From NCBI RefSeq assembly GCF_011440375.1, contig NZ_JAAOIR010000002.1:434001-498000 (forward strand): a DNA stretch of 64,000 bases, given 5' to 3'. The notes under the pieces are model-generated. The model was not told the origin of the DNA and ran no database searches. It was given only the letters and a program-made list of their open reading frames with translations. The position numbers and the translations under genes were made by a program. Each line of letters starts with the position of its first letter. Position 1 is the first letter of the stretch. Shown piece by piece: positions 43,285-55,524 of the stretch. This stretch comes from Halorubellus sp. JP-L1 (lineage in GTDB: Archaea; Halobacteriota; Halobacteria; Halobacteriales; Natrialbaceae).

Positions 43285-43334
43285 GACGCAACGAACGCAA
43301 CCGTTTCACACTCCACCACGCAACCAGAGAGCGA

Positions 43335-43400
43335 GGGCCCGTAGCTCAGTGGACAGAGTGCTTGGTTCCAGACCACGATGTCGCGGGTTCAAATTCTGTC
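43335..43400 (+). pseudogene. degenerate tRNA-Arg-like copy
   Basis: This matches the intact tRNA-Arg at 43603 from the 5' end through the T-loop but differs at positions 27, 36 and 42 and in the T stem, and the 3' acceptor strand cannot pair with the 5' strand. The anticodon would read CCA. The TATA-like box seen before the intact copy ('gttatagc') is spoiled here ('gtttcaca'). The true-looking 3' end reappears only at 43454. I read it as a dead duplicate, not a tRNA-Trp. Confidence 0.7.
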
Positions 43401-43453
43401 AGAGCACGCTCTGACTGACTCCCATTCGCTCGCTAGCGCTCGCTCACGGGAGT

Positions 43454-43468
43454 CCCGTCGGGTCCGCT
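43454..43468 (+). repeat. displaced tRNA-Arg 3' end, copy 1
   Basis: 'cccgtcgggtccgct' is identical to the last part of tRNA-Arg plus two bases. It sits 59 nt past the T-loop of the degenerate copy. Such orphan 3' ends are left when an integrase uses a tRNA gene as its attachment site. Confidence 0.7.
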
Positions 43469-43570
43469 CCAACGACACCTGTTCGCTCGTACGTAGTCGA
43501 ACTACCATCAGTTTCAGCACTGACGGATGTCACTCAATTCGATTCCCCACCGGACAGCTGGTTCACAACC

Positions 43571-43578
43571 GTTATAGC
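43571..43578 (+). promoter_or_regulatory. TATA-like box of tRNA-Arg
   Basis: 'gttatagc' lies about 28 nt before the mature 5' end at 43603, a normal position for an archaeal tRNA promoter. Confidence 0.5.
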
Positions 43579-43602
43579 ACCCCGAGAGCAATTCGTACCC
43601 GA

Positions 43603-43675
43603 GGGCCCGTAGCTCAGTGGACAGAGTGTTTGGTTCCGGACCAAGATGTCGCGGGTTCAAATCCCGTCGGGTCCG
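43603..43675 (+). tRNA. tRNA-Arg (anticodon CCG)
   Basis: A 73-nt cloverleaf without intron. Acceptor GGGCCCG pairs with CGGGTCC; D stem GCTC/GAGT; anticodon stem TTTGG/CCAAG around loop TTCCGGA, giving CCG; T stem GCGGG/CCCGT; discriminator G. The CCA end is not encoded. It decodes CGG, a common codon at this GC content. Confidence 0.93.
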
Positions 43676-43746
43676 CTCGGATTCGCTTCGTTGTCCTCGC
43701 TCCCCCGACGTAGTCCCCCTCGCTCCCTGCGGTCGCTCGCGGGACT

Positions 43747-43761
43747 CCCGTCGGGTCCGCT
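43747..43761 (+). repeat. displaced tRNA-Arg 3' end, copy 2
   Basis: An exact second orphan copy of 'cccgtcgggtccgct', 71 nt past the end of the intact tRNA. With copy 1 and the tRNA itself it makes three direct repeats within 310 bp. No integrase is encoded nearby. Confidence 0.75.
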
Positions 43762-43839
43762 TTCTCGGTGCGCAAAACGGCGAGCGTAGCGAGGAGTCGA
43801 GGAGCGGAACGATATTGGGTACTGGTGGTCGGATTATTC

Positions 43840-47662: not shown

Positions 47663-48175
47663 TCAAGGTGAGAGGTTCTCGCCCTGGTAGTCGCCGTCGT
47701 ACTCGCCGTCGTGTTCCGCTTCCGCGAGCACGAGCTGTGCGATGCGCGCGCCCTCGACGAGTTCGACGTCGTGATGGACCTGGAGGAGGCCCTCGCCGCG
47801 GCCCTCGTAGCCGGCGTCCCAGACCGCGGTGTTCAGCATGCACGAGTTCCGCATGAGCGACGACCGCGGGTAGACGAACCCGACGTGGCCCTCGGGGATC
47901 GAGATCGTCTCGCCGTACCGGACGACGTACGATCCCTCCTCGAGGTAGTACGTGCCGGCGTCGACGTCGCGGTCACCGCTTGCGGTGGTGTCGCCACCGA
48001 CCGTTTCGGGTTCGCGCTCCTGCCGAGCACCGACTTCCTTGCCGTCGCGGCCGATGCGACCCGGTTCGCGTTGCTCGAACACGGCGTCGAGCGTCAGGTC
48101 GACGCCGTTGGGCTGGTGTTGGTCGGCGCGCGTCGGTTCCACGTGCGAAGCCACGAACGACCCAGCGCGATACAT
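47663..48175 (-). CDS. dut: dUTP diphosphatase of the dCTP-deaminase family
   Basis: A 170-residue protein of the DCD/DUT fold. Its N terminus 'MYRAGSFVASHVEP' and 'PNGVDLTLDAVFEQREPGRI' match haloarchaeal dUTPases; 'GFVYPRSSLMRNSCMLNTAVWDAGYEG' is the conserved motif holding substrate and catalytic residues. It hydrolyses dUTP to dUMP, keeping uracil out of DNA. It diverges from aconitase, and the two starts are separated by the tandem-repeat region. Confidence 0.9.
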   Translation of the reverse strand: MYRAGSFVASHVEPTRADQHQPNGVDLTLDAVFEQREPGRIGRDGKEVGARQEREPETVGGDTTASGDRDVDAGTYYLEEGSYVVRYGETISIPEGHVGFVYPRSSLMRNSCMLNTAVWDAGYEGRGEGLLQVHHDVELVEGARIAQLVLAEAEHDGEYDGDYQGENLSP

Positions 48176-48598
48176 ACCCGGCAGGACCCGGTCGAATGGA
48201 ATGTAGCTTGCGGGTCGCGACCGCCACCTCGGATGGGGCGGTACCAGCAGACGATGCGGTCGCTGCGGAAGGCGTCGAGCGAACCGGTGATGTCGGCGGT
48301 TCCGGGAGATGTCGGCCGCTGCGGGTGATGTCGGCGGTTCCGGGAGATGTCGGCCGCTGCGGGTGATGTCGGCGGTTCCGGGAGATGTCGGCGGTTCCGG
48401 GAGATGTCGGTTACGCGGGCTGTTGGCGGTCGCCGAAGATGGTGTCGGTCGCCGGAGTTCGGTGCGCCTGACGTGGACGCTCGTCCACTTCGGTGGCAAG
48501 ATTCGCACGAATCGCGAGGCGGCGGCGGTGGTTCCGCACCGTTTTCCCCCACCTAACTCGCGGGTTTTAAGGTCGGGCGGGGCGGAGCTTTGAACGCT
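48176..48598 (+). other. 423-bp divergent intergenic region between dut and aconitase
   Basis: No gene. Holds the 19-nt tandem-repeat array at 48289-48402. The acn promoter is at 48565-48570 ('ttttaa' about 31 nt before ATG 48599). The other half likely holds the dut promoter. Confidence 0.6.
48289..48402. repeat. 19-nt tandem repeat array, six units
   Basis: Six head-to-tail 19-nt units at 48289, 48308, 48327, 48346, 48365 and 48384, with a partial seventh. Two variants occur: 'gatgtcggcggttccggga' (A) and 'gatgtcggccgctgcgggt' (B), in the order A-B-A-B-A-A. There are no spacers, so it is not CRISPR. Location between two divergent promoters suggests either protein binding sites or a minisatellite. 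Confidence 0.9.
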
Positions 48599-53529: not shown

Positions 53530-53593
53530 AGACGGCGACGGGAGTGCGCGTCGACGGTGTCGGCGGCTACTCCGGTGCGGACACCGGACATTG

Positions 53594-54133
53594 ATGGCCG
53601 AGCACGCCCAACCCCCGGGCGTGACGACGACGGCCCCCGACGACGGCGACGCGCGGTCGCGCATCCGGCAGGCCGACCGCGCGGACTTGCTCGCCATCTA
53701 CCGGATCGAGAAGGCGTCGTTCCCGCAGCCGTGGCCGTACGAGGTGTTCGACCGATTCCTCGGCGAACCGGGATTCCTCGTGGCGATCGAGGGCGAAGCG
53801 GTCGTCGGGTACGTGGTCGCTGACGTCGTTCCGAACCACGGCCGGTCGTTCGGGCACGTCAAAGACCTCGCGGTCCACCCCGACCGCCGCGGCCGAGGGT
53901 ACGGGCGTCGCTTGCTCGCGCACTCGCTGACGCGACTCGCGGAGGCGGACGCGACGAGCGCGAAACTCGAGGTCCGCGAGGGGAACGAACCCGCGAAGCA
54001 CCTCTACCGCGACTTCGGGTTCCAGGCGCTCCGGCGCGTCGAGGGCTACTACGACGACGGCGAGAACGCGCTCGTGATGGTGCGCGAACTCGACGACTGG
54101 GGCCGACGCGACCGCGACTACGGCGGTCACTGA
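53594..54133 (+). CDS. rimI: RimI-type N-acetyltransferase
   Basis: A 179-residue GNAT protein. After an acidic 25-residue lead come 'RIEKASFPQPWPYEVFDRFL', typical of RimI/Ard1, the acetyl-CoA loop 'VHPDRRGRGYGRRLL', and 'LEVREGNEPAKHLYRDFGF'. Archaeal members acetylate protein N termini, with broad specificity. A TTG three bases upstream is ignored. The gene ends just before the repeat-rich region. Confidence 0.9.
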   Translation: MAEHAQPPGVTTTAPDDGDARSRIRQADRADLLAIYRIEKASFPQPWPYEVFDRFLGEPGFLVAIEGEAVVGYVVADVVPNHGRSFGHVKDLAVHPDRRGRGYGRRLLAHSLTRLAEADATSAKLEVREGNEPAKHLYRDFGFQALRRVEGYYDDGENALVMVRELDDWGRRDRDYGGH

Positions 54134-54143
54134 ACGAACGACC

Positions 54144-54257
54144 GCGATTACACAGCGGAAGAGACGGCACTGCGAACGGATAGAAAGCCCCGGCTCGTTC
54201 GCGATTACACAGCGGAAGAGACGGCACCGCGAACGTATAGAAAGCCCCGGCGCGTTC
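54144..54257. repeat. 57-nt direct repeat, two copies
   Basis: Units at 54144-54200 and 54201-54257 match at most positions. Each contains 'gcgattacacagcggaag' and ends near 'tagaaagccccgg'. Confidence 0.9.
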
Positions 54258-54340
54258 GCCCGCCCTCGCTCGCTGTGGTCCTCGTCGCTCACTGCGTTCG
54301 CGACTGCGGTCCTTGCTTCGCGACGCCGGGCGAACGCGCC

Positions 54341-54695
54341 GCCCCTTTCAGTCCCACCCCGACCGGGACCGCACCGCCACCGCTTCCGCGACCGCACCGC
54401 GCCCTGCCCTCCCCCTACTCGCAGCGCGCGCCGTCGGCGCGCGCTGCTCGCGGCCCGGACGGTGGATCGAATAGGGCGTTCGACCGCCGGCTGGCGCGCG
54501 GTGTCGTAGCCGCGCGAGTGAAGACGAGCGCGGCTGCGTCGATACCGTGCGAGGTTCCCGCGAGCGAAGCGAGCGGGAGCACGTGAGAGCGTGCTCTCAC
54601 GGAGGACGAGCACCGAGGCCGCAGGCCGAGGCGCGCAGTCGGCTGGGGAGGGCGAGGCTGCGGTGCCGTCGCGGTCGGGTGGGACTGAACGGGGC
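54341..54695. repeat. imperfect inverted repeat enclosing about 290 bp
   Basis: The left arm 54341-54375 and the right arm 54662-54695 are reverse complements with a few mismatches; the core is 'agtcccaccccgaccg' versus 'cggtcgggtgggact'. The enclosed bases carry strong local hairpins. Terminal inverted repeats of this kind delimit MITE-like elements, but no target-site duplication was obvious. Confidence 0.6.
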
Positions 54696-54972
54696 CGTGC
54701 GCTCGATCCGTCCCGGACGCCACAAGCACCGCAGGCGAGCGGAGCGACGCCGAGGAGCGCAGTGCGCGTCCCGGACGGTCGAGCGTGCGGGGGCGTTCGG
54801 GGCGGTATTCGATGTAGTGTGTTGTTCCTGTTCGGAGATAGAGTGACGGTCGAGCATGCGGGGGCGTTCTGTTGGGTCGTCGTGGCGTCGTTGGCCTCTG
54901 CGACCGGGAGCGGGTTCTCGGGCGAGGGTCGTGACGGAGGGCTTTTGCTCGCGGCGACGCACGTTCCCGGTA

Positions 54973-55524
54973 ATGGCGTACCGCTGTCCGGTGTGTGACA
55001 CGCCCCAGACCGACGCGGAGCATCTCGCGAACCACCTCGCGTTCACCGCGGTCATCCGCGGCGACGCGCACGAGGACTGGCTCGACGACCACGTGCCCGA
55101 GTGGGGCGAGCGGAACCCGGAGACGCTCGCGCCGACGGTCGCCGAGGCCGTCCCCGAGGTCGACGTCCCCGAGTTCGACGACGACGGTCACGACCACGGC
55201 GGTCGGCTCGAGGACGAACTCGCGCAGCAGGGCGGGCACCGCGGCCCCGGCGCGACCGGCGGTGGCGAGGCGGGCGCGAGCGCGGGCGGTCGCGGCGACC
55301 TCACCGACGAAGCGGCGGGCGTGATGGCGGAGGCCCGCCAGCTCACCGAGCAGATGTACGGGCTCGACGAGGGCGGCGACGCGAGCGAGGGCGAGGACGC
55401 GAGCGAGGGCGAGGACGCGAGCGAGGGCGAGGACGCGAGCGAGGGCGAGGATGCGAGCGAGGACGACGGGTCGGACGGGGAGTCCGCGAGCGGCGACGGG
55501 TCGGATGCAAGCGAAAGCGAGTAG
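54973..55524 (+). CDS. DUF5810 family protein with acidic repeat tail
   Basis: A 183-residue haloarchaeal protein. The N terminus carries a zinc-ribbon-like 'MAYRCPVCDTPQTDAEHLANH' and 'HEDWLDDHVPEWG', as in DUF5810 proteins. The C-terminal half is disordered, with DASEGE units (18-nt repeats) and Ser/Asp-rich ends. Function unknown. It is followed 24 bp later by its usual partner DUF5809. Confidence 0.82.
   Translation: MAYRCPVCDTPQTDAEHLANHLAFTAVIRGDAHEDWLDDHVPEWGERNPETLAPTVAEAVPEVDVPEFDDDGHDHGGRLEDELAQQGGHRGPGATGGGEAGASAGGRGDLTDEAAGVMAEARQLTEQMYGLDEGGDASEGEDASEGEDASEGEDASEGEDASEDDGSDGESASGDGSDASESE
55378..55467 (+). repeat. 18-nt in-frame tandem repeat
   Basis: Four exact 18-nt copies (55378, 55396, 55414, 55432) and one changed copy. 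They encode DASEGE repeats in the DUF5810 tail. Confidence 0.9.

Follow-up and report, generated by a model that had tools for sequence, protein, structure and literature searches.

A probable copy of an apparently undescribed, modular and dispersed element of Halobacteria between rimI and DUF5810 in Halorubellus sp. JP-L1

What occupies the intergenic block that separates a rimI-like GNAT gene from a DUF5810 gene (both identified by Pfam) in Halorubellus sp. JP-L1? The block lies in a 64,000-nt stretch of DNA, here called the window, and the original prediction had offered two answers on account of its many repeats: a decayed or non-autonomous mobile element, or a structured RNA. Our analysis leads us to read the block, with a probability of roughly 0.6, as one copy of a modular dispersed element, Halobacteria-wide and non-autonomous, with a single-strand fold that would be recognised in trans. 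The family is apparently undescribed. The parts of the locus, numbered from the first nucleotide of the window, are as follows.

54134–54972, no strand assigned: intergenic block of 839 nt between rimI (53591–54133) and DUF5810 (54973–55524).
54143–54256, no strand assigned: tandem 57-nt duplication, the repeated outer arm (GCGAAC..AGAAAGCCCCGGC) of the left inverted module D'.
54240–54359, minus strand: module D', an inverted copy of hairpin D, reading GGTGGGACTGAAAGGGGC...GGGGCTTTC on the minus strand (converted from L066, minus 1798–1912).
54394–54664, plus strand: extended core, closed by GCCCTGCCCTCCCC pairing with GGGGAGGGCGAGGC.
54421–54447, plus strand: GC-rich hairpin of the extended core, with arms 54421–54433 and 54435–54447 (13 bp under strict complementarity, 1-nt loop).
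54487–54660, plus strand: conserved minimal unit, a full-length match to covariance model R1 (63.2 bits, E 2.3e-10).
54493–54551, plus strand: hairpin A, GGCGCGCGGTGTC...GATACCGTGCG, with an internal tandem GA/GA.
54555–54638, plus strand: hairpin B region, enlarged in this copy by inserted filler hairpins.
54639–54651, plus strand: near-invariant motif TCGGCTGGGGAGG.
54677–54798, plus strand: module D hairpin, GGGTGGGACTGAACGGGGCC...GGGGGCGTTC.
54845–54869, plus strand: extra copy of the module D 3' arm.

The block thus reads as D' with a duplicated arm, the extended core, and D with a duplicated arm, and this modular order accounts for the repeats that had been listed in the original prediction. 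The 57-nt duplication (54143–54199 and 54200–54256, 95%) and the 25-nt direct repeat (54774–54798 and 54845–54869) were both found as predicted and are the outer arms of D' and D, respectively, repeated in tandem; repeated arms homologous to 54143–54256 also occur in other copies of the element, e.g. L002 and L003. Likewise recovered were the perfect 14-nt inverted repeat GGCGCGTTCGCCCG/CGGGCGAACGCGCC (54249–54262 and 54327–54340, 64-nt loop), which is nested in the 30-nt pair I1 (83%), and the 8-bp hairpin GTGAGAGC/GCTCTCAC (about 54584–54601), one of the filler hairpins within the hairpin B region. Two other structures were present with different dimensions: the long imperfect inverted arms, put at 35 nt and about 290 nt apart, measure 29 nt (54331–54359 and 54677–54705, 86%) and lie 317 nt apart, and the GC hairpin thought to have 12 perfect pairs has 13.

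The block contained 53 repeated or inverted 10-mer pairs, compared with 4.4 in shuffles. Fold z values were −6.6 for the core and −5.8 for 54394–54900, and the predicted fold of the latter recovers the same modular parts. The claim that the block is unlike any other gap of the window held for inverted 10-mer pairs (16, against 10.5 in the next-ranking gap) but failed for direct repeats, in which the gaps at 48143–48598 and 43285–43839 exceed it. No tRNA was found in the block, and a search with the Rfam 15 covariance models gave no match at the gathering score, the best weak match being a plant miRNA model (E 0.26).

Other repeats were seen in the window. Its strongest direct-repeat gap holds an intergenic tandem 38-nt unit at 48286–48410 (3.3 copies, 95%). 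Near an intact tRNA-Arg (43603–43676) lies a second tRNA-Arg-like sequence (43338–43460), which a filler hairpin appears to interrupt close to its 3' end, together with a further stray copy of the tRNA-Arg 3' end (43743–43761); these pieces could be the remnant of an integration at the tRNA. Inside the DUF5810 gene, an 18-nt tandem repeat (55368–55466, 5.5 copies) encodes an acidic EGEDAS-type tail.

The rimI-like and DUF5810 genes are adjacent in about 20 relatives, where the spacer between them is 86 nt in a genome of the same genus (G001), 0–160 nt in nearly all others and 402 nt in one, as against 839 nt here. The comparison shows that about 750 nt of the block is a lineage-specific insertion between the two genes. 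The R1 model, which describes the conserved unit of about 118 nt and has a single match in the 64-kb window, detected no element at the relatives' DUF5810 loci except for one match in L179, which adjoins the DUF5810 gene in a genome with no rimI found beside it.

Other copies, which the original prediction had suggested looking for, were abundant. A search of the genome with the 839-nt block returned 45 matching places, corresponding to about 22 dispersed copies that are 70–88% identical over parts, and these copies, when read and aligned, displayed a common core (GCCCTGCCCTCCCC ... GGCGCGCGGTGTC-hairpin-GATACCGTGCGAGG-variable-TCGGCTGGGGAGG) with modules on its flanks. A smaller unit, running from GGCGCGCG to GGGGAGG, was present in other genera in a search of 60 relatives. 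The strict motif of this unit occurred in 117 of 292 genomes of the class and 40 of 77 genera, at 1–112 exact copies per genome, and a backwards control motif occurred in none of the 292. The covariance model reached E 1e-4 in only 14 of 247 genomes of a phylum sample, fewer than the motif because scoring was limited to 14 candidates per genome and the filters were strict. Scanning GTDB contigs for a motif taken from the unit's 3' half yielded at least 120 stretches, and the 5' half of the model was matched in nearly all of the 80 loci analysed, though these had been selected by the 3'-half motif alone; among the matches listed, all source titles were Halobacteria save one Spongiactinospora. 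The Natrialbaceae-like copies have sharp edges, with conservation at background level about 20 nt upstream and about 33–35 nt past GGGGAGG. The exact motif was absent from all sampled genomes of some large genera, e.g. g33, which may help to explain why the family went unnoticed. Viral carriage was rejected on zero matches in IMG/VR viral contigs (exact motif) and zero in phage records, and matches in plasmid-type records were restricted to some large haloarchaeal replicons.

Two arrangements around individual copies were also observed. Several core copies in the source genome (L007, L008, L011 and L013) are bordered by a different dispersed inverted repeat of the TTTTTCTGCGTCGGGTGCGCC...GGCGCACCGCTCCTTGAAAAAACGTTGATGAAAAAAGG type. 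Paired copies stand back-to-back in Haladaptatus with a gap of 29–49 nt (L265, L282, L287 and L289) and head-on in other genera, where about 130–310 nt separate them (L233, L256, L281 and L302).

The core of about 100–120 nt comprises hairpins A and B and the conserved sequences GTGCGAGG and TCGGYTGGGGAGG. With a structure written by hand for 24 diverse copies, 90.8% of cells were paired, 16 of 25 pairs showed double changes, and the covariation score was 0.439, compared with 0.03–0.10 when the partners were slid. An alignment of 92 copies gave double changes in 21 of 24 pairs and a score of 0.419 versus at most 0.072 slid; because this alignment was fitted to the model and leans towards it, and the copies are not independent, the slid control and an alignment-free strand test matter here. 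In that test, the modelled strand folded better than its complement in 225 of 226 distinct units (mean difference −12.9 kcal/mol), whereas in flanking DNA of equal lengths it did so in 93 of 222, a slight lean the other way; since the copies are related, the p-values of the test are overstated, while its direction is clear. Among the non-Watson-Crick stem pairs of 158 aligned copies, leaving out pairs with a non-Watson-Crick consensus, there were 211 G-U and 26 A-C. Covariation, one-strand folding and the G-U bias together show that a single-stranded molecule of the modelled strand is under selection, either RNA or strand-specific ssDNA. We prefer RNA, the best match to the G-U pairs and the tandem G-A mismatches, without regarding it as proven; strand-specific ssDNA hairpins could produce a similar G-U-type bias. 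The structured RNA of the original prediction is borne out in part, as a strongly covarying, strand-specific fold, with its RNA nature preferred.

Three further ideas about the fold were dropped. An upstream CCAACC did not co-change with CGGYTGG, its supposed partner. GAYGA...GA resembles a hammerhead-like core, but judged by eye against the hammerhead consensus the expected C and U positions are GG. A likeness to SRP/Alu was seen by eye only and had no Rfam match.

A second long hairpin, module D, is bracketed by GGTGGGACTGAAAGGGGC and GGGGGCTTTC. The sequence of its stem changes fully among copies while complementarity is kept, and at its GAAxG/CxTTC pair most copies have A-T and some, those of the source genome included, have C-G. 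Module D usually follows the core, lying 14–109 nt downstream of the core end on the same strand in 49 of 59 copies; the source genome additionally has the inverted D' on the other flank.

The occupancy of sites was compared between related species. In two g8 genomes, five of six syntenic element sites were common and the sixth carried the element in just one of the two; a further g8 pair had five of eight sites in common. These data show gain or loss of sites between species, and the several common sites imply that movement is slow or that sites are kept. At common sites the unit was still recognisable while much of the surrounding spacer had diverged, and the hairpin A stems of one orthologous pair differed by several paired changes. 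Such a pattern would be expected if selection maintains the fold in place or if another copy has taken over the site. At L350 (G252:C71:47300-52300), about 2.6 kb including an element copy is replaced in the relative G008 by about 70 nt, suggesting that this copy lies within a larger variable segment.

In the genomic contexts examined, where neighbouring genes were called with a simple in-house scorer, all 64 copies were intergenic, their orientation to genes was near random, and 11 were antisense to both neighbours. TATA-like or T-run signals, as marks of promoters or terminators, were not enriched near the copies, and the 94 neighbouring proteins belonged to unrelated families, none of which occurred more than twice. 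Random orientation, the lack of a promoter-like signal and the unrelated neighbours speak against both a cis-regulated regulon and ordinary stand-alone sRNA genes. A terminator or 3'UTR role, first suggested by copies just past stop codons, was rejected on the near-random orientation. A family of small non-coding RNAs that benefits the host, acting in trans or in cis on flanking mRNAs and multiplied in the genome, is hence unlikely in our judgement: RNA-type covariation with a G-U bias would suit it, as would the many sites common to different species despite divergence of the spacer surrounding the unit, but the context data speak against it and so does the patchy distribution, with the exact motif absent in many genera.

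Searches for mobilising enzymes bear on the other readings. Reverse transcriptase (RVT_1) was found in none of five element-rich genomes, and Y1_Tnp (HUH) was absent in four of them (G000, G226, G035 and G287) and present, partly broken, in G292; control genomes were positive in both searches. These results remove two obvious routes of mobilisation. In our view it is distinctly improbable that the selected molecule is ssDNA without any RNA role, with an HUH-type or other ssDNA enzyme recognising its fold and mobilising the element. An ssDNA could also fold strand-specifically with tandem G-A mismatches, and that reading would suit the missing promoter signal and the occurrence in both orientations relative to genes, but Y1_Tnp, the sole HUH family examined, is missing in most of these genomes, and large two-domain folds are, to our knowledge, not typical of known transposon ends. 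We consider it very improbable that the element is the end of an IS605-type transposon or a guide-RNA-like scaffold (omega-RNA type) of a TnpB or IscB nuclease. A structured RNA in dispersed copies would fit such a scaffold and the genome does contain tnpB-like genes, but the R1 model had no match around its three PF07282 places, TnpB was not among the most frequent neighbour families, and the Y1 transposase is largely missing, as above. Ordinary GC-rich filler, or a decayed relic with no selected structure, is hardly tenable. Simple shuffled 'GAGCGAAGCGAGC' filler is indeed present in the loops and varies among copies; homologous copies, covariation, strand-specific folding and a repeat density above shuffles nevertheless contradict it. 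The original prediction had allowed for typical GC-rich filler should copies, a transcript and covariation all be missing, and copies and covariation were found.

We therefore favour the dispersed, non-autonomous element. The mobile element of the original prediction is likewise borne out in part, the block being inserted, dispersed and non-autonomous in appearance; 'decayed' is not supported, as the fold in the window still scores with the family. Such an element would spread non-autonomously, its single-stranded fold would be recognised by a putative trans-acting factor, and any effects on neighbouring genes would be incidental; its copies may be transcribed into RNA. Against this reading, the searches turned up neither a mobilising enzyme nor an exact end or target-site duplication for the element, and the sites common to different species and the lack of a promoter or terminator signal weigh against it as well; in the comparisons of empty and filled sites no target-site duplication was seen, with flanks too diverged to fix the ends. 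As a tentative possibility, we put forward that the family is a selfish element found class-wide, RNA or strand-specific ssDNA, which spreads without a known reverse transcriptase or Y1 transposase and whose two-domain fold is recognised by a putative protein. For haloarchaeal genomes, some of the puzzling GC-rich 'filler' between genes can now be seen as an ordered family, whose fold is testable and for which a covariance model is available, and a concrete question is raised: which factor recognises and moves the fold, when searches of the examined genomes did not turn up the usual enzymes?

No description of the family was found in the open-access literature on haloarchaeal repeats and ncRNAs. 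It does not clearly share the defining features of MITEs, REPINs and retroelements and is filed under none of them. Like MITEs, it is short, non-coding and present in many dispersed copies; inverted D'/D arms flank the window copy, while minimal copies in other genera are without such arms. No transposase family was among those most frequent in the 94 neighbouring proteins. As in structured non-coding RNAs, its covariation exceeds controls and G-U outnumbers A-C exceptions. The RVT_1 gene expected with a SINE-like or group II-derived retroelement was found in none of the five genomes. REPIN/RAYT systems and IS200/IS605 ends share its strand-specific hairpins and paired inverted copies; however, its fold is much larger, and the Y1 transposase expected with them is found in one of the five element-rich genomes. 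The pneumococcal BOX is modular and intergenic, with repeated sub-units, many copies and a stable predicted RNA fold. The family resembles it in build and differs in its modules and in being archaeal. The long intergenic regions of Haloquadratum walsbyi carry novel DNA repeats, likewise haloarchaeal and non-coding, which are compared here from a brief mention that gives no sequence or fold (PMC1544339). Correia/NEMIS, ERIC/IRU and CIR are MITE-like intergenic repeats of bacteria whose transcripts fold stably (PMC2229807). They share with the family a short length (about 100–200 nt), a non-coding, intergenic nature, many copies and stable folds, whereas the family has another sequence and domain, minimal copies without terminal inverted repeats, no target-site duplication seen and no related transposase found, and a fold backed by covariation across a whole archaeal class. 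By analogy, the family appears to behave most like these small intergenic repeats with folding transcripts.
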